From NCBI GenBank assembly GCA_016795105.1, contig JAEUIH010000008.1, positions 62,001-126,000 of the forward strand: DNA of 64,000 nucleotides. The letters are read 5' to 3'. The notes beneath the pieces were generated by a model. That model worked only from the letters and a program-made list of their open reading frames with translations, searched no databases and was not told the origin of the DNA. A program made the translations under genes and the position numbers. This document shows, piece by piece, positions 7,039-13,937 of this stretch. Source of the stretch: Planctomyces sp. Lineage in GTDB: Bacteria > Planctomycetota > Planctomycetia > Planctomycetales > Planctomycetaceae. Within the stretch, counting starts at the first letter, position 1. Each line of letters opens with the position of its first letter.

Positions 7039-8271
7039 ATGCGTCGCATCAAAGTACTCATCGTTGATGACTCCGCCCTGATGCGAGAGCTCCTCACGGA
7101 TATCCTCAGCTCCAGCCCTCAAATTGAAGTTGTCGGCACCGCCGGAGATCCATACATCGCGCGAGATAAGATCCTGAGGCTCTGTCCCGACGTCCTGACA
7201 CTCGATATTGAAATGCCTCGAATGGATGGTTTGACGTTTCTCGAACGACTGATGGCCAGTCACCCGATGCCGGTTATCATGGTCTCGTCCGCAACGGAAC
7301 GTGGCTGTGACACGACCTTTCGAGCTCTTGAACTTGGGGCAATCGACTTCGTTACAAAGCCTGCTCTGAATCTCGATGGCGGGCTGAAGGAACTCTCTGA
7401 TGAAATCATAGCAAAGGTCATTGGAGCGTTTCGAGCCGGAGTTCGTCGTCGTTCAAGAAGTCCGGTCATCGAACTGACGCCTGCTCAGGCGTCGGCAGGC
7501 ATCATGGAAAACAAAACTGCTGCGTGCAACTCAGCATACAAGGTCGTTGCAATTGGCACATCGACAGGCGGCGCTGAGGCTCTTCTAAGCATCCTCTGCC
7601 AGCTGCCTGCTGATTCGCCCGGAATTGTTGCCGTCATTCACATGCCTCCGGTTTATACAAAATCGTATGCGGAACGACTCAATCGCTCGTGCCACGTGAA
7701 CGTGAAGGAAGCAGAAGACGGAGACCGAATCCTCCCCGGACACGTCCTGATCGCCCCGGGCAATTACCATCTTACGGTCCACCGGACTGGTACCATCTGT
7801 AAGGTCAGGATCAGCGACACAGAAAAAGTGTCGGGATTCCGCCCCTCGGTGGACGTACTATTTCATTCCTGCGCACGCCACCTTGGCTCCAATGCGGTGG
7901 GGGTGATCCTGACCGGCATGGGACACGATGGGGCCGCCGGGCTTCTGGCAATGAGTCTAACAGGAGCTCACACCATCGCTCAGGATGAACGCAGCTGTGT
8001 GGTCTTTGGAATGCCGCGTGAAGCGATTAAGCTCCAGGCGGCTACACAAGTGCTGCCTCTGGATCAAATTCCCGCACAGATACTCCGACACGGGTATGCA
8101 CTTCCAGCAGAGAGTGGCGGATCCCGGGCGGGCGGATCCCGGGCGGGCGGATCCACTGGAGGAGCTCCCGGGACGGGGTCTTCAGATACAGGTCCTCCGG
8201 GCATGAGACTTCAGGGACCTGCCTCATCCGAACAATCCAGAGTGCAGTGCCGATCACTCAATTCAACTTAA
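7039..8271 (+). CDS. cheB: Protein-glutamate methylesterase/deamidase CheB
   Basis: Receiver domain (VLIVDDSALMREL, phosphoacceptor in LTLDIEMPRMDG) followed by the methylesterase domain. With the ATG at 7039 the catalytic triad is Ser175 (GTSTGG), His201 and Asp297 (GHDGAAG), with the same spacing as the enteric enzyme. A TTG start at 7006 is also open but adds only an unconserved stretch, so the ATG is preferred. The last 50 residues are a Gly/Ala/Ser-rich tail absent from typical CheB. It removes receptor methyl groups and is activated by CheA. Its TAA overlaps the valS stop codon on the other strand. Confidence 0.95.
   Translation: MRRIKVLIVDDSALMRELLTDILSSSPQIEVVGTAGDPYIARDKILRLCPDVLTLDIEMPRMDGLTFLERLMASHPMPVIMVSSATERGCDTTFRALELGAIDFVTKPALNLDGGLKELSDEIIAKVIGAFRAGVRRRSRSPVIELTPAQASAGIMENKTAACNSAYKVVAIGTSTGGAEALLSILCQLPADSPGIVAVIHMPPVYTKSYAERLNRSCHVNVKEAEDGDRILPGHVLIAPGNYHLTVHRTGTICKVRISDTEKVSGFRPSVDVLFHSCARHLGSNAVGVILTGMGHDGAAGLLAMSLTGAHTIAQDERSCVVFGMPREAIKLQAATQVLPLDQIPAQILRHGYALPAESGGSRAGGSRAGGSTGGAPGTGSSDTGPPGMRLQGPASSEQSRVQCRSLNST
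8116..8160 (+). repeat. 15-bp tandem repeat inside the cheB 3' end
   Basis: Two exact copies of GGCGGATCCCGGGCG (8116-8130, 8131-8145) and a partial third copy. The 15-bp unit keeps the reading frame and encodes GGSRA units in the CheB C-terminal tail. Likely a slippage-prone, copy-variable linker tail. Confidence 0.85.
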
Positions 8272-11200
8272 CTGCTCAGCTCTGCAATGATGCGTTCGAC
8301 ACTTTCCAACTGAGATTTAAGCCCGCTCAGGGTTTCTCGAATCTCGTTCACGACCTGTTCCGGCGCCTTGGCGAGGAACCCTTCATTCGACAGCTTCTTC
8401 TCGTGCCCTGAGATAAACCCTTTCAGCTTGTCTGCTTCCTTCAGTTGTCGAGTCAGTTCGGCTTTTCGATCGATCAGCCCTTCAAGCGGTATATATCCGT
8501 CGGCATCTCCCAGAGAAAAACTGGCAGATCCTCCCGGCCTTGAGACATCCAGTCCGGCCGCGGCAAGCATCGTCTTCGAAAGATTGTCAAACTGATCCGC
8601 AACGGCTTCCAGCTGCGTTGCGACTTCCGGTGAACACTTGATGAACAATTTCAGGTGCGCAGAGGGAGCAATATTATAAACCGAACGCACGTTGCGAACC
8701 GCAACGATTGTCTCCTGCAGTCGCTGAAATCGATGTTCCAGTGCGGTGTCAATGCTTCGCGCCGCAAGAAGCGGCCATTCCGCAACCATGACACTTTCAA
8801 CCGCCACAGTCGGCAATTCAAGTCCCCGTTCAGGAGCAAATTCATTCAGCAGATGCCAAAGCTCCTCCGTGATGAACGGGGCAAACGGATGAAGTAGCCT
8901 GAGCAGATGGTCAACTACGACAACCAACACTCGCTGAGCAACTCCCCGTGCTGATTCACTTCGAAATCGAGGTTTGAGCATTTCGAGGTACCAGTCACAG
9001 AATTCGTTCCATGTGAATTCGCGAATTGCTCGAGTTGCCTGATCGAACTGATATCGATCCAGCATTGTCGTAACGTCTTTGGCTGTTGATGCAAGGCGAC
9101 TGAGAATCCATCGATCCTCCACCTGAAGCTCAGAATCTGCAACCGGTGCAGCCGAATAGCCCTCCAGATTCATAAATGCAAAACGGCAGGCATTCCAGAG
9201 TTTGTTACAGAAATTCCGTCCGTAATCGAACCGTTCGCTGACAATTCTGGCAACCGCAGCACCTTCGTCCGGGACAAACCATGGGCTCGGAAACTGAAAT
9301 GCTTTCTTGCACTTGCCACACTTGATTGAAGGAGTAGCGCCGCCCATTGGCCGCATCTCCTGGTGTTCTTTCGTCTGGCCGGTAATGGCCTGACAATGTG
9401 GACATTCATAGCCGACTGGCAGCCGAACGTCCTGAGTTTCTCCTGCCAGAGAAGCAATGGTAAAACGGACCGCGTCCGTTCCGTATTTGTCGATCAACTC
9501 GAGCGGGTCAACTCCATTGCCTTTGGACTTTGACATTGTCTGGCCAAGTCCATCCAGTATCTTCGGATGGATATAGACATGCCGAAACGGGACGTCTCCC
9601 ATATTGTAAAGCCCCGTCAGCACCATTCTGGCGACCCACAGAGTGATAATATCACGGGAGGTCACCAGCACTGAACCTGGATAGAAGTACCTGAGAACTT
9701 CGTTCACTCCGCCTGTGGTGTTCGCTGCCTGAACCTGACCGGAACTCTGAGAATCGGTGCCCGCCATCGGCGGATTGTGGGTCAGGTCCGGCCAGCCCAG
9801 TGTTGCGTGTGGCCAGAGTGCCGAACTGAACCACGTATCAAGCACATCCGGATCCTGTTCGAAGCCAGCTTCGGCCAGGGCCTGCTCCAGGTCAGCATTC
9901 CCGGCATCAACGCAGCACAGAATCAGCTCTTCACCCGGGTGCAGGCCTGGGGCGAACTGTGCGGCAAGTCGCCCAAGGTATTGCTCCGCAAGTCCGATTC
10001 GGCCTCCGGAAAGGAGTTGAGCTCCGAAGGGGGCGAGGCACTTCAACCGGTCAGCGGAACTCTGAACGTCTCCATCGCTATCGACGCGTCTCGACCAGAC
10101 GGGAATCCGATGCCCCCACCACAACTGACGACTGATACACCAGTCTCGCTTCTCTCCCAACCAGTCAAGGTACGTATTTGCATATCGCTGCGGAAAGAAG
10201 CGAACGCGACCATCGCGAACCGCGTCCATCGCAGCTTCCGCGAGTGTATCCATTTTCACGAACCACTGATCTGACAGAAACGGTTCAATCGGTGTCTTCG
10301 AACGATCACTGTGCATGAGTGGGATGACACGGTCTTCAACTTTTTCGAGATGACCGAGTTCCTGCATCCGTTCGACGATCTTCTTTCGGGCTTCGTATCG
10401 ATCCAACCCTGTAAACGGCGCCCCATTGTCATTAATTGACCCATCCGGATTCATGATATTGATCATGGGCAGGTTATTGCGAAGCCCGCACGCATAGTCA
10501 TTGGGATCGTGTGCCGGTGTCACTTTGACCGCGCCTGTACCCAGTTCGCGGTTGGCGAGCAAAGCATCGGCGATGACCGGTATACATCGACCGTTCACCG
10601 GAATCTGGACCAGACGTCCGATCAGGTGCGTGTAGCGTTCGTCTGAGGGATGAACGCAGACTGCGGAGTCTCCAAGCATGGTTTCCGGGCGAGTCGTTGA
10701 GAAACTAATGCGATCCCCGGTTGGCTTCCCGTTCGCATCAACAACCGGATAGTTCATCGTCCAGAAGTGCCCGTCAACGTCTTCATGGAACACCTCATCG
10801 TCGGCAACAGCCGTCTGAAGGTAGGTATCCCAGTTCACCAGCCGCTTGCCTCGATAGACCAATCCATCGCAGAACATACGATAGAACGTCTTGCGGACTG
10901 CACGGCTGCAGACGTCATCGAGAGTGAATCGAACACGTCGCCAGTCACAGCTCGATCCAATCTGCTTGAGCTGATTCAGAATGCGGGCTTCGTATTCATC
11001 TTTCCATTTCCAGATTCGTTTGACCAGCGCATCACGACCGATGTCATGACGAGTCAGTCCCTCTTCTTCCAGCATTCGACGCTCGACGACAGCCTGTGTC
11101 GCAATGCCGGCGTGGTCAGTTCCCGGCATCCACAAAGCCACTTTCCCCTGCATGCGACGGAACCGAGTAATCAGGTCCTGAACGGTGCCGTTGAGGCAAT

Positions 11201-11366
11201 GCCCCATGTGCAGAGCGCCCGTGACGTTCGGAAGGGGAATCATGATCGTATGGGATTCACGATCCGGAGCCGGATCCGCATTGCAGTATCCGTGCTTCAG
11301 CCAGTGTTCAACCCAGCGATTCTGTGCAGCTGCCGGATCATAGTGTTTTGGAAGATCAGTAGGCAT
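8268..11366 (-). CDS. valS: Valyl-tRNA synthetase
   Basis: 1032 aa class Ia synthetase that charges tRNA-Val. It has the HIGH-type motif in PNVTGALHMGHCLNG, the editing domain (SFSTTRPETMLGDSAV), the KMSKS-type loop TMSKSKGNGVDP, the anticodon-binding domain (YGRNFCNKLWNACRF) and a C-terminal coiled coil. A four-Cys insert (CPHC...CGKC) follows the KMSKS region. The start is set at MPTDLPKHYDP; a longer open frame to 11510 would run into cimA and is not family-like. It begins 37 bp after cimA, so the two are probably cotranscribed and share the attenuator upstream of cimA. The stop codon overlaps that of cheB. Confidence 0.97.
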   Translation of the reverse strand: MPTDLPKHYDPAAAQNRWVEHWLKHGYCNADPAPDRESHTIMIPLPNVTGALHMGHCLNGTVQDLITRFRRMQGKVALWMPGTDHAGIATQAVVERRMLEEEGLTRHDIGRDALVKRIWKWKDEYEARILNQLKQIGSSCDWRRVRFTLDDVCSRAVRKTFYRMFCDGLVYRGKRLVNWDTYLQTAVADDEVFHEDVDGHFWTMNYPVVDANGKPTGDRISFSTTRPETMLGDSAVCVHPSDERYTHLIGRLVQIPVNGRCIPVIADALLANRELGTGAVKVTPAHDPNDYACGLRNNLPMINIMNPDGSINDNGAPFTGLDRYEARKKIVERMQELGHLEKVEDRVIPLMHSDRSKTPIEPFLSDQWFVKMDTLAEAAMDAVRDGRVRFFPQRYANTYLDWLGEKRDWCISRQLWWGHRIPVWSRRVDSDGDVQSSADRLKCLAPFGAQLLSGGRIGLAEQYLGRLAAQFAPGLHPGEELILCCVDAGNADLEQALAEAGFEQDPDVLDTWFSSALWPHATLGWPDLTHNPPMAGTDSQSSGQVQAANTTGGVNEVLRYFYPGSVLVTSRDIITLWVARMVLTGLYNMGDVPFRHVYIHPKILDGLGQTMSKSKGNGVDPLELIDKYGTDAVRFTIASLAGETQDVRLPVGYECPHCQAITGQTKEHQEMRPMGGATPSIKCGKCKKAFQFPSPWFVPDEGAAVARIVSERFDYGRNFCNKLWNACRFAFMNLEGYSAAPVADSELQVEDRWILSRLASTAKDVTTMLDRYQFDQATRAIREFTWNEFCDWYLEMLKPRFRSESARGVAQRVLVVVVDHLLRLLHPFAPFITEELWHLLNEFAPERGLELPTVAVESVMVAEWPLLAARSIDTALEHRFQRLQETIVAVRNVRSVYNIAPSAHLKLFIKCSPEVATQLEAVADQFDNLSKTMLAAAGLDVSRPGGSASFSLGDADGYIPLEGLIDRKAELTRQLKEADKLKGFISGHEKKLSNEGFLAKAPEQVVNEIRETLSGLKSQLESVERIIAELSS

Positions 11367-11403: not shown

Positions 11404-12981
11404 TCAGCCTTCGTTGGCGCTGACACTTCCATTGTCTTTGTGGATCTTGTATTCGACTGCGTCAACCAGAGCTTTCCAGCTGGCCTCAATGATATTCTCA
11501 CTGACTCCAACGGTACTCCAGACTTCTGACCGATCCCGACTTTCGATCACAACCCGCACGCGGGCTGCTGTACCCTCGGTACTGTTAATCACACGCACTT
11601 TGTAGTCCGCCAGACTCATCTCAGACAAACCCGGATATGCGGGTGTCAGTGCCTTTCGCAAGGCTGAGTCCAATGCATTGACCGGTCCGTCGCCCTCACC
11701 GACAACATGCTGGGTGGCGCCGCCGATCCTGAGCTTAACAATCGCCTCCGTCATCGGCTCGCGGTCCTGATTCTCTACGTTGACTCGATAGTGGTCGAGT
11801 TCAAATGCACGCGAATAACTTCCGGCATGTTTCATGACCAGAAGATCGAACGAAGCCTCTGCTGCTTCAAACTGGTAACCCGCATTTTCGAGGTCCTGAA
11901 CTTCGTTGAGAATCTTCGTCATCAGAGCCTGATCTTCATTGATCCGGAATTTGGTAGTCTTCGCCACAATATTCGATCGTCCGGACAACTCACTCACGAG
12001 AACTCGGCGAACATTTCCAACAGACTCCGGAGTAATGTGCTCATAGCTGCTCGCAATGCGATTGACTGCATGTACATGCATCCCGCCTTTATGAGCAAAC
12101 GAACTTGTTCCAACAAATGGCTGTCCCGGCCGGAAATTCATGTTGGCAACTTCATAGACATATCGAGACAGTTCCGTCAGTCGCTGAATTCCTCCAGGCA
12201 ACAATACATCGTATCCAAGTTTCAATGACAAATTCGCAGCAACTGATACAAGATCTGCATTCCCACACCGCTCCCCGATCCCGTTGATGGTTCCCTGTAC
12301 CTGGATAGCGCCAGCCTGCACTGCCGCCAGAGAATTGGCAATCGCCAGGTCGCAGTCGTTATGGCAGTGAATACCGATCGGTACGTGAACGTTGCGACCG
12401 AGCTCGGTCACGAATTCAGCAATTTTCTGAGGCAACGTTCCACCGTTCGTGTCACACATCACGATCATATTCGCGCCGGCTTCAGCGGCGGCACACAGCG
12501 TCCGCAGGGCATACTCGGGGTTCGCCTTCCAGCCGTCGAAGCAATGTTCGGCATCGTAGATCGCTTCAAAACCACTTTGTTTCACAAACGCGATCGAGTC
12601 ACGAATCATGGCGAGATTCTCTTCCAGAGATACTCGCAGGACTTCTGTCACATGCAGATCCCACGTTTTGCCAACAATTGTAATCGCATTTGCACGCGAC
12701 TTGACCAGTGCCTGCATACCGATATCTTCGGCGGCAGAAATCCCTTTTCGACGTGTCATTCCGAAGGCAGTGACACGAGCATGTCGCAATGGACTGACAG
12801 CAATCTTCTGAAAGTATTCCTCGTCCTTCGGATTTGAAAGAGGATACCCACCTTCGATGTAGTCAAAGCCCAACTCGTCCAGCTTCTGAGTGATCAGAAG
12901 TTTGTCCTGCAAAGAAAAATTGACGCCCTCCCCCTGAGCACCGTCGCGAAGCGTCGTGTCATATAGCTGAATGCGAGTCAT
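11404..12981 (-). CDS. cimA: (R)-citramalate synthase
   Basis: 525 aa, the full length of the CimA/LeuA-like family. The HMGL-like TIM barrel carries LYDTTLRDGAQGEG and the metal-binding HCHNDCDLA, with GERCGNADL nearby. A C-terminal LeuA allosteric dimer domain starts at about residue 385. It condenses acetyl-CoA with pyruvate to citramalate, the entry to threonine-independent isoleucine synthesis. The FDYIEGGYPLSNPKDEE motif favours citramalate over isopropylmalate synthase. The ATG at 12981 is chosen because the open frame upstream runs through a terminator hairpin. Its leader carries an Ile/Val attenuator. valS follows 37 bp later. Confidence 0.93.
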   Translation of the reverse strand: MTRIQLYDTTLRDGAQGEGVNFSLQDKLLITQKLDELGFDYIEGGYPLSNPKDEEYFQKIAVSPLRHARVTAFGMTRRKGISAAEDIGMQALVKSRANAITIVGKTWDLHVTEVLRVSLEENLAMIRDSIAFVKQSGFEAIYDAEHCFDGWKANPEYALRTLCAAAEAGANMIVMCDTNGGTLPQKIAEFVTELGRNVHVPIGIHCHNDCDLAIANSLAAVQAGAIQVQGTINGIGERCGNADLVSVAANLSLKLGYDVLLPGGIQRLTELSRYVYEVANMNFRPGQPFVGTSSFAHKGGMHVHAVNRIASSYEHITPESVGNVRRVLVSELSGRSNIVAKTTKFRINEDQALMTKILNEVQDLENAGYQFEAAEASFDLLVMKHAGSYSRAFELDHYRVNVENQDREPMTEAIVKLRIGGATQHVVGEGDGPVNALDSALRKALTPAYPGLSEMSLADYKVRVINSTEGTAARVRVVIESRDRSEVWSTVGVSENIIEASWKALVDAVEYKIHKDNGSVSANEG

Positions 12982-13063: not shown

Positions 13064-13095
13064 AAAAAAACCCTCAGGGTACTTCCTGAGGGTTT
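13064..13095 (-). terminator. Rho-independent terminator in the cimA leader (attenuator)
   Basis: On the - strand a perfect 11-bp stem (AAACCCTCAGG with CCTGAGGGTTT) has a 6-nt loop AAGTAC, and the stem runs into seven T residues. It lies 83 nt upstream of the cimA start, with no complete gene before it on that strand except the 25-codon leader. It is therefore in a position to stop transcription before cimA-valS. Confidence 0.88.
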
Positions 13096-13123
13096 GTCGA
13101 GTTCCAAAACAGAGCCTCAGGAA
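13083..13123 (-). promoter_or_regulatory. Antiterminator pairing that competes with the cimA leader terminator
   Basis: TTCCTGAGG (13123-13115, - strand) is exactly complementary to CCTCAGGAA (13091-13083). The latter covers most of the 5' arm and part of the loop of the terminator. The 9-bp pairing and the terminator stem cannot coexist. The upstream strand overlaps the leader peptide stop codon, so a ribosome that finishes the leader would cover it and let the terminator form. A ribosome stalled at the Val/Ile codons would leave it free. Confidence 0.8.
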
Positions 13124-13194
13124 ATCTGCAATTGTCCGCCACAAATAATGACGGAGACAGCGATTACCGGAATAGCAACTGCAAACCTTGACAT
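13117..13194 (-). CDS. Ile/Val-rich leader peptide of the cimA-valS attenuator
   Basis: 25 codons from ATG to TGA. The peptide begins MSRFAVAIPVIAVSVII and has four Val and five Ile. Eight of these nine fall within codons 6-17. The TGA lies inside the CCTGAGG strand of the antiterminator. Stalling at codons 13-17 would leave that strand uncovered and completion would cover it, which is the geometry of enteric ilv and trp leaders. The ribosome site is weak (GAAG 5 nt before ATG). Too short for routine gene calling. Confidence 0.8.
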   Translation of the reverse strand: MSRFAVAIPVIAVSVIICGGQLQIS

Positions 13195-13406
13195 TGAACT
13201 TCGATTGCTTTTCTGAATTTCGGGTTAAACGCGATACTTGCGAAACGGAACTTTAGAGGAATCCGGGGGGGAACGTCAACGAGCATTCCTGTTTTCCATC
13301 GGGTCCCGGACACCAATCCCGGCGAAATTGTTCACTGAACCGCCGTTTTTTCCCTCGGAACTGTTAAGATCGGGGCCTTTCATACACCTTGCGAGTGAGC
13401 GTTTTG

Positions 13407-13937
13407 ATGAGCGAAGTCGTTTCCACACCCCCAGTCGCCAAACGAAGTTATGCCGGTCGATGGCTTGTCGCCAGTATGTTTCTCCTCGGCTTCACTGCCA
13501 CAGGACTGCTGAGGTGGTACTGGAATGAACACCTTGAACCATTTATGCCTCTTCAGGAAGCCATTGAAAAAGACTTCCCCGGATCAGCCCCTCGCGTTGA
13601 TGGAGGAAAACGCAGACTCGACAGAGATACTCCAATGATCCTCCGAGTTGTCATCAAAGTCCCCTTCGACCCAACTCAAACGGAACCGACGCCAATTGTC
13701 GAATCTCCGCCGCCAGGTGTGAAGCCAAGCGGCAATCCGCCAGTCCTGGTTAAGGCACCCGATGAAATGATGCGATACGCTGATCGAATTCGAGAACTCG
13801 CAAAAACCCATGTCTCCTCGCCAAAAGCGGATGTCCTCGAAATTCACTACTACCATCTCATCAAAGAGAAAGAAATTCGCGAAGGGATGGTGCGGCGAGA
13901 CATGGAGACCTGGGAAGTCGTGAAAGACCTCAAATAG
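13407..13937 (+). CDS. Hypothetical single-pass membrane protein
   Basis: 176 aa from the ATG at 13407; a TTG six codons earlier is also possible. One hydrophobic segment near the N-terminus (WLVASMFLLGFTATGLL) is followed by a soluble, Pro-rich domain with charged ends. I recognise no family. It is divergent from the cimA leader and separated from the convergent glycine-rich gene by a strong bidirectional terminator, so it is probably monocistronic. Confidence 0.75.
   Translation: MSEVVSTPPVAKRSYAGRWLVASMFLLGFTATGLLRWYWNEHLEPFMPLQEAIEKDFPGSAPRVDGGKRRLDRDTPMILRVVIKVPFDPTQTEPTPIVESPPPGVKPSGNPPVLVKAPDEMMRYADRIRELAKTHVSSPKADVLEIHYYHLIKEKEIREGMVRRDMETWEVVKDLK

Follow-up and report, generated by a model that had tools for sequence, protein, structure and literature searches.

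A leader-peptide attenuator predicted upstream of cimA–valS in planctomycetes, with isoleucine as the constant control residue and valine codons that accompany valS linkage

Organization of the cimA leader region

The 64,000-nucleotide stretch of Planctomyces sp. DNA analysed here, taken at its full length and hereafter called the window, carries on its − strand the gene of citramalate synthase (cimA, 11404–12981, 525 aa; TIGR00977, 681 bits with a cutoff of 450) and, 37 nt after the cimA stop, the start of the gene of valyl-tRNA synthetase (valS, 8268–11366, 1032 aa; TIGR00422, 915 bits with a cutoff of 612), as an earlier, sequence-only reading of this DNA had stated. Upstream of cimA and on the same strand lies an open reading frame of 25 codons followed by TGA (13117–13194), read in the window and present in the ORF list, whose product would be the leader peptide MSRFAVAIPVIAVSVIICGGQLQIS. 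Valine is specified by codons 6, 10, 13 and 15 and isoleucine by codons 8, 11, 16, 17 and 24, in agreement with the earlier count of four Val and five Ile, eight of these nine falling within codons 6–17. The likely main control codons are Val13 (GTC), Val15 (GTC), Ile16 (ATT) and Ile17 (ATT), at 13144–13158 of the − strand; the last two stand 10 and 9 codons ahead of the stop, that is, at the family-wide isoleucine peak described below. No clear Shine-Dalgarno sequence was recognized by eye at the leader ATG of the window, and on the 5′ side of the leader a promoter-like site, TTGACG-18-TAAAGT, occupies 13250–13279 of the − strand (one site found vs 0.2 in shuffles of the region).

All the remaining elements are likewise on the − strand. 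The 5′ arm of the predicted antiterminator, strand 2 (TTCCTGAGG, 13115–13123), holds the leader stop (TGA, 13119–13117) and is complementary to a part of strand 3 (CCTCAGGAA, 13083–13091), which in turn belongs to a predicted intrinsic terminator formed by strands 3 and 4 (13068–13095; loop AAGTAC; −18.8 kcal/mol). The sequence of the latter, AAACCCTCAGG-aagtac-CCTGAGGGTTT, makes a perfect 11-bp stem and is followed by TTTTG, so that the stem is present as described in the sequence-only reading; the T7 tract in which that stem was said to end does exist (13070–13064), but its first three T's are part of the stem itself. Similarly, the 9-bp pairing of the antiterminator strand and its overlap with the TGA were confirmed, whereas the claim that its complement is the terminator 5′ arm was only partly correct, the nine partner bases being distributed between this arm (seven) and the loop (two). 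Three terminator-like sites occur in the 701 bases scanned, vs 1.1 in shuffles, and the one of the cimA leader has the longest stem.

The folding energy of the window leader is 4.3 sd below that of shuffled sequences, none of 200 shuffles being as good. In the fold of the stretch 13126–13084 (−14.0 kcal/mol) strands 2 and 3 are paired to each other, and the terminator (−18.8 kcal/mol) is stronger than this antiterminator, so that the outcome would depend on kinetics. In the minimum-free-energy fold of the window leader a 12-bp helix is predicted between 13187–13176 (strand 1) and 13134–13123, the latter segment touching the 5′ edge of strand 2; this helix could represent a 1:2 protector.

Further upstream an ORF of 182 aa is found on the + strand (13389–13937), divergent from the cimA leader; it matches no NCBIfam family and, to judge from the ORF list, it is likely a real neighbouring gene. 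Since this likely neighbour is divergent, the hairpin would not be the terminator of an upstream gene, an origin that was considered and found unlikely.

Conservation of the leader among planctomycetes

Two partly overlapping samples, which share some genomes, were used to follow the element in relatives. A contig scan yielded 80 cimA relatives, 78 of which have usable upstream DNA (L027 and L064 being the exceptions); by sequence criteria, a terminator together with an antiterminator strand is present in 64 of 79 loci, the window included. Within the window's own family cimA was detected at E ≤ 1e-150 in 109 of 120 genomes, and of the 100 loci taken from them 92 have a terminator ahead of cimA by sequence criteria. 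In the other eight (L125, L141, L183, L194, L200, L207, L210, L211), in which no terminator is detectable, it may have been lost, have moved or have been missed by the criteria.

The DNA upstream of the terminator in these 92 loci and in the window was compared with 40 dinucleotide-keeping shuffles subjected to the identical search. At least six Ile/Val codons within 12 codons are found in 58 of the 93 leaders; the shuffles average 0.4 such leaders and never exceed 4. The antiterminator helix score is 18.2 vs 11.6 in shuffles, and helices scoring at least 18 are found in 50 of the 93 loci vs 7.6 in shuffles. A leader peptide with at least three Ile in 12 codons is present in 88 of the 93; the occurrence of a leader peptide in close relatives had been named beforehand as a check, and so had covarying stems.

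For the comparisons across the phylogeny, 144 leaders with at least three Ile in 12 codons, selected by their Ile and not by their Val content, were obtained from 179 loci; after removal of duplicates 128 remained, which were positioned on a cimA tree, and exclusion of the loci in which the contig ends (L001, L008, L056, L067, L117, L126, L179; L010 was already out as a duplicate) reduced them to 121. In the 128 leaders the pairing of strand 2 with strand 3 of the same leader (−19.4 kcal/mol) is more stable than that with strand 3 of other species (−16.3 kcal/mol), as covariation would have it, with a z of −12 that retains the effect of relatedness and is not to be read as a probability. A clear strand 2, i.e., a helix score of at least 14 near the leader stop, is present in 116 of the 128, and in these 116 leaders 12 nt or more separate 93% of the Ile codons from strand 2 further downstream, so that a ribosome stalled there would leave strand 2 free. 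As to the position of the cimA promoter, on which the sequence-only reading had made the transcription of the hairpin depend, consensus matches of the type TTGAC-N15-20-TANNNT are found upstream of the leader not only in the window but in 108 of the 121 loci, where 2.3 are expected from mononucleotide shuffles.

A strict three-part DNA pattern returned 40 rows in 36 of the 120 family genomes, 34 of them just upstream of cimA and six elsewhere; its one match in the window's genome is the cimA leader. By eye, the leader peptides vary widely outside their Ile/Val codons. Outside the window's class, 20 cimA loci were inspected, 18 of which have long upstream DNA, and four, by plain count, have a terminator and an adjacent Ile-containing ORF, which may place the origin of the element before that of the class. 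These four are L237, L238, L239 and L254, the element of L254 being ~400 nt upstream.

Isoleucine as the constant control residue

In the 92 family loci and the window the mean best count per 12 codons is 4.5 for Ile, followed by 2.3 for Ser, 2.0 for Arg and 1.9 for Val; only five of these 93 leaders have at most one Ile in 12 codons. Isoleucine peaks 7–11 codons before the stop and valine is more evenly distributed along the leader. Compared with shuffled leaders Ile is enriched 2.76-fold, Val 1.74-fold and Gly 1.42-fold; the value for Ile is inflated, the leaders having been chosen for this residue, and the fair control is the above Ile/Val comparison (58 of 93 vs 0.4). When the leaders of the family are pooled, the pair Ile plus Val is no commoner than Ile plus Ser or Ile plus Gly. 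The constant control codon is isoleucine, and the view that the leaders are Ile/Val-rich throughout the clade had to be corrected: Ile is constant and Val depends on the linkage of valS.

A side observation concerns codon choice. In the 128 leaders Ile is mostly encoded by ATT (462 of 677 codons), and in the first 500 codons of cimA of the same species it is mostly encoded by ATC (2352 of 3360); the window's own cimA has no ATC bias (17 ATT, 15 ATC). One tRNA may read both codons. According to a model of attenuation, high sensitivity depends on which of the synonymous codons is used (PMC1183508); this may bear on the ATT excess of the leaders.

Valine codons and the linkage of valS

Downstream of cimA, valS is present in 47 of the 80 contig loci and absent from 28, the remaining five being cut by the contig end; the premise that cimA–valS is the conserved target was corrected in view of these 28. 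Relatives without valS keep the leader, and the attenuator therefore belongs to cimA first. The recurrent presence and absence of valS behind cimA represents a natural experiment on leader codon choice: Fitch parsimony requires at least 14 changes of linkage on the cimA tree, gains and losses pooled, with a linked root, and this variation makes the proposition that control codons follow operon content testable.

The mean number of Val per leader is 2.66 in loci where valS follows within 1500 nt (n=82) and 0.74 in those where it does not (n=39); at least two Val are present in 70 of the former and six of the latter, and no Val at all in two and 17, respectively. With relatedness taken into account by PGLS, Val is the residue most strongly associated with linkage among all 20 (p 4.3e-9, n=121). 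Ile does not differ (p 0.53), and four residues are lower in the linked leaders (Leu, p 0.0055; Gly, p 0.027; Phe, p 0.043; Pro, p 0.046). Of 12 phylogenetically independent pairs, ten have more Val in the member with valS, none has less and two are tied (p 0.002), and Thr is lower with valS in eight of nine untied pairs (p 0.04). Family members (p 1.7e-10, n=85) and loci from outside the family (p 0.0064, n=36) both show the Val effect, which persists in leaders with at least four Ile (p 2.4e-9) and is obtained also from codons 5–20 before the stop alone (p 6.9e-9).

When only valS closer than 400 nt is counted as linked, the effect becomes weak (p 0.017), His (p 0.0025) and Pro (p 0.012) scoring better, because leaders are no poorer in Val where valS lies at 400–1500 nt (2.83 codons, n=24) than in the close class (2.59, n=58); a strong effect requires that one gene be allowed between cimA and valS. 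In several of the loci at 400–1500 nt much of the gap is occupied by an ORF on the same strand, an arrangement compatible with a single transcription unit. The gap gene is of the Uma2 family (PF05685) in all three loci searched (L072:6583-7506, L035:6584-7213, L034:6705-7673).

The linkage labels underwent completion after a first test, from genome coordinates and not from the leaders. That first test, with incomplete labels that covered about 1300 nt downstream for the family loci, gave p 0.059 (<400 nt) and 5e-4 (<1500 nt) with n=128; a second, with five labels completed and the contig-end loci out, gave p 4.4e-8 and 12 pairs with Val higher, one lower and two tied (n=122). The final test reported above differs from the second by the correction of two labels (L201, L132) and the dropping of L179, made after the pair list of the second test was seen.

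Where valS is unlinked, a terminator within 400 nt was found in none of the 18 readable regions out of 20 taken, leaders having been sought only beside terminators; of the other two regions one consisted of a single base and one did not extend to the valS start. Taken as a whole, these data probably reflect an evolving two-input sensor, in which Ile codons are kept for cimA and Val codons are kept as long as valS is linked and decay afterwards, the leader acting as an Ile/Val OR gate whose codons tell the content of the operon. The suggestion of the sequence-only reading that one sensor serves both genes is borne out insofar as the Val codons go with valS, but Ile alone is constant and the leader is kept also where valS is absent.

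A leucine leader upstream of leuA

The checks in the window's own genome covered cimA, leuA and ilvB with their paralogues and one DNA pattern. Upstream of leuA, about 130–180 nt from its start (L082, G000:C144), is a leader ending in MSILLLILLSLLLPV, with a terminator and an antiterminator of the same build as those of cimA; no terminator was found in the 500 nt examined at ilvB. In the family, leuA was identified in 59 of 61 genomes, and in each of the 30 loci read (L256–L285) a terminator occurs together with a leader that reaches four or more Leu in 12 codons; the 30 leaders pooled contain 208 Leu, 21 Ile and 14 Val, which are plain counts from leaders picked for the highest content of a single one of I, L and V. 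One and the same genome would thus have two branched-chain genes preceded by leaders with the matching amino acid, Ile for cimA and Leu for leuA.

Proposed mechanism and its alternatives

The elements described above are best accounted for by a ribosome-mediated transcription attenuator that controls cimA and the following valS, a reading to which a probability of about 0.9 may be given and whose assignment to this class of regulators rests on anatomy and evolution. The leader is read here as a sensor of Ile or Val shortage; that it is translated, that transcription terminates at the hairpin and that the response has the direction outlined below is what we infer.

According to this model, transcription would begin ahead of the leader, with a ribosome trailing RNA polymerase through the 25 codons. 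A shortage of Ile-tRNA or Val-tRNA would make the ribosome stall at the Val/Ile run of codons 13–17 and so leave strand 2, located about 20 nt further on, free to pair with strand 3; this pairing would preclude formation of the 3:4 terminator and cimA–valS would be read. When both tRNAs are charged, the ribosome would reach the TGA inside strand 2 and cover this strand, so that 3:4 would form and transcription would end near 13064.

The alternative that comes closest to this model, and yet is rather improbable, is an attenuator responding to isoleucine only and serving cimA, with the Val codons being incidental or structural and valS simply carried along. Its attraction lies in the constancy and the well-placed peak of Ile as opposed to the more even spread of Val, in the fact that the leader persists in relatives lacking valS and has few Val there (mean 0.74), and in the finding that in the whole family Ile plus Val does not exceed Ile plus Ser or Ile plus Gly. 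What it leaves unexplained is that, after correction for the tree, the Val codons track valS in the family (p 1.7e-10) and beyond it (p 0.0064), and that they do so also within codons 5–20 before the stop (p 6.9e-9), Ile being unchanged. An unregulated terminator with a fixed level of read-through, preceded by an ORF that is there by chance or encodes a small protein, would be compatible with the diversity that the peptides display by eye outside their Ile/Val codons; it is made very unlikely by the co-occurrence of Ile run, stop position, antiterminator and terminator across many genera and by a codon identity that fits the gene, Ile for cimA and Leu for leuA.

Genes of branched-chain metabolism and of aminoacyl-tRNA synthetases are targets of T-boxes and riboswitches in other phyla, a circumstance that would speak for a metabolite- or tRNA-binding RNA upstream of cimA. 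Indeed, ileS T-boxes are on record in actinobacteria (PMC1262725). However, within the window every Rfam family stays below its gathering score, and in the 551 bases around the leader five sub-threshold Rfam matches are listed, the best with E 0.3, none of them a T-box; one of the five, to His_leader, has 16.6 bits with a gathering score of 49 (E 3.3), and eight further loci compared with Rfam gave two tRNAs only. T-box, riboswitch and the Rfam amino-acid leader families were rejected accordingly, for want of a match at gathering score, and an explanation of this type is the least credible of those considered. The attenuator interpretation put forward in the sequence-only reading is, on the other hand, supported.

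Relationship to known attenuators

The attenuators of ilvGMEDA, ilvBN, leu, thr and trp in E. coli and S. typhimurium, as named in PMC1183508, have in common with the cimA leader an ORF containing control codons. A stop near strand 2 and mutually exclusive antiterminator and terminator structures are further features shared by the enterobacterial ilv, leu, thr and trp attenuators and the cimA leader. Going by the codon make-up of the E. coli and S. typhimurium attenuator leaders, more than one control amino acid is possible there, as in the cimA leader. The phylum, however, is another one and the targets are a citramalate synthase and an aminoacyl-tRNA synthetase; the likeness is one of design, judged from anatomy.

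For the ilvB-II, ilvB-OMG and ilvB motifs an upstream ORF rich in branched-chain codons ahead of a branched-chain amino-acid gene is described and attenuation is proposed, as here; unlike the cimA leader they lie upstream of ilvB and belong to Corynebacterium, various phyla and Leptospira (PMC10272879). Short ORFs with runs of Ile, Val and Leu over terminators are known also from actinobacterial ilvB leaders, and the Leu run of the actinobacterial leuA LEU element resembles the planctomycete leuA leader, but for these elements the mode of regulation is given as unclear or as involving a pseudoknot, and codon changes in the ilvB leader of S. coelicolor are reported to have had no effect (all from PMC1262725). 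The S. aureus ilv-leu attenuator likewise has a leader with Leu and some Ile codons ahead of a terminator and concerns the branched-chain pathway, but its main signal is Leu and it is found upstream of ilvD (PMC5794164).

With regard to distribution, a survey of 2010 extended leader-peptide attenuation, then known from Proteobacteria and Actinobacteria, to Firmicutes (PMC2965389), and later cases have been proposed in other phyla (PMC10272879). Leader genes have been counted in many groups, Planctomycetes included, and linked to reinitiation (PMC4833913), cimA and leuA not being named in the main text of that paper. No leader-peptide attenuator for planctomycetes or for cimA was recognized in searches of the open literature, and the earlier statement that none of this kind is described in planctomycetes or for cimA–valS is not contradicted by them; further cases might be contained in the bulk tables of PMC4833913 or in Lopatovskaya et al. 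2010 (Mol Biol 44:128). The mechanism is classical and, as far as seen, the novelty lies in the phylum, in the pair of targets and in the way leader codons correlate with gene content. The predicted attenuation is widespread in the sampled planctomycete class.

Leaders with an AAQGVR core

In nine of the 80 contig loci (L026, L032, L042, L048, L049, L051, L072, L075, L076) the leader, located about 115–175 nt upstream of cimA, contains the core I-x-AAQGVR; by title, five of the nine are Gemmatales, Gemmataceae or Fimbriiglobus and one is Isosphaera. Fourteen bases, GCGCAGGGAGTGCG, are identical in all nine leaders, in a search that permitted synonymous changes; they are absent from the window. 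Among 392 genomes of the phylum, a sample with few members of the window's class outside its family, there are 35 matches listed, in 30 genomes, and a reversed control pattern gives about 31. GGA accounts for only 7% of the Gly codons in the cimA genes of the AAQGVR loci, and the bases of GCGCAGGGAGTGCG are able to form a small hairpin with the loop GGGAG. The conserved letters suggest a signal at the level of RNA, a pause site or an arrest peptide that would replace the long Ile run.
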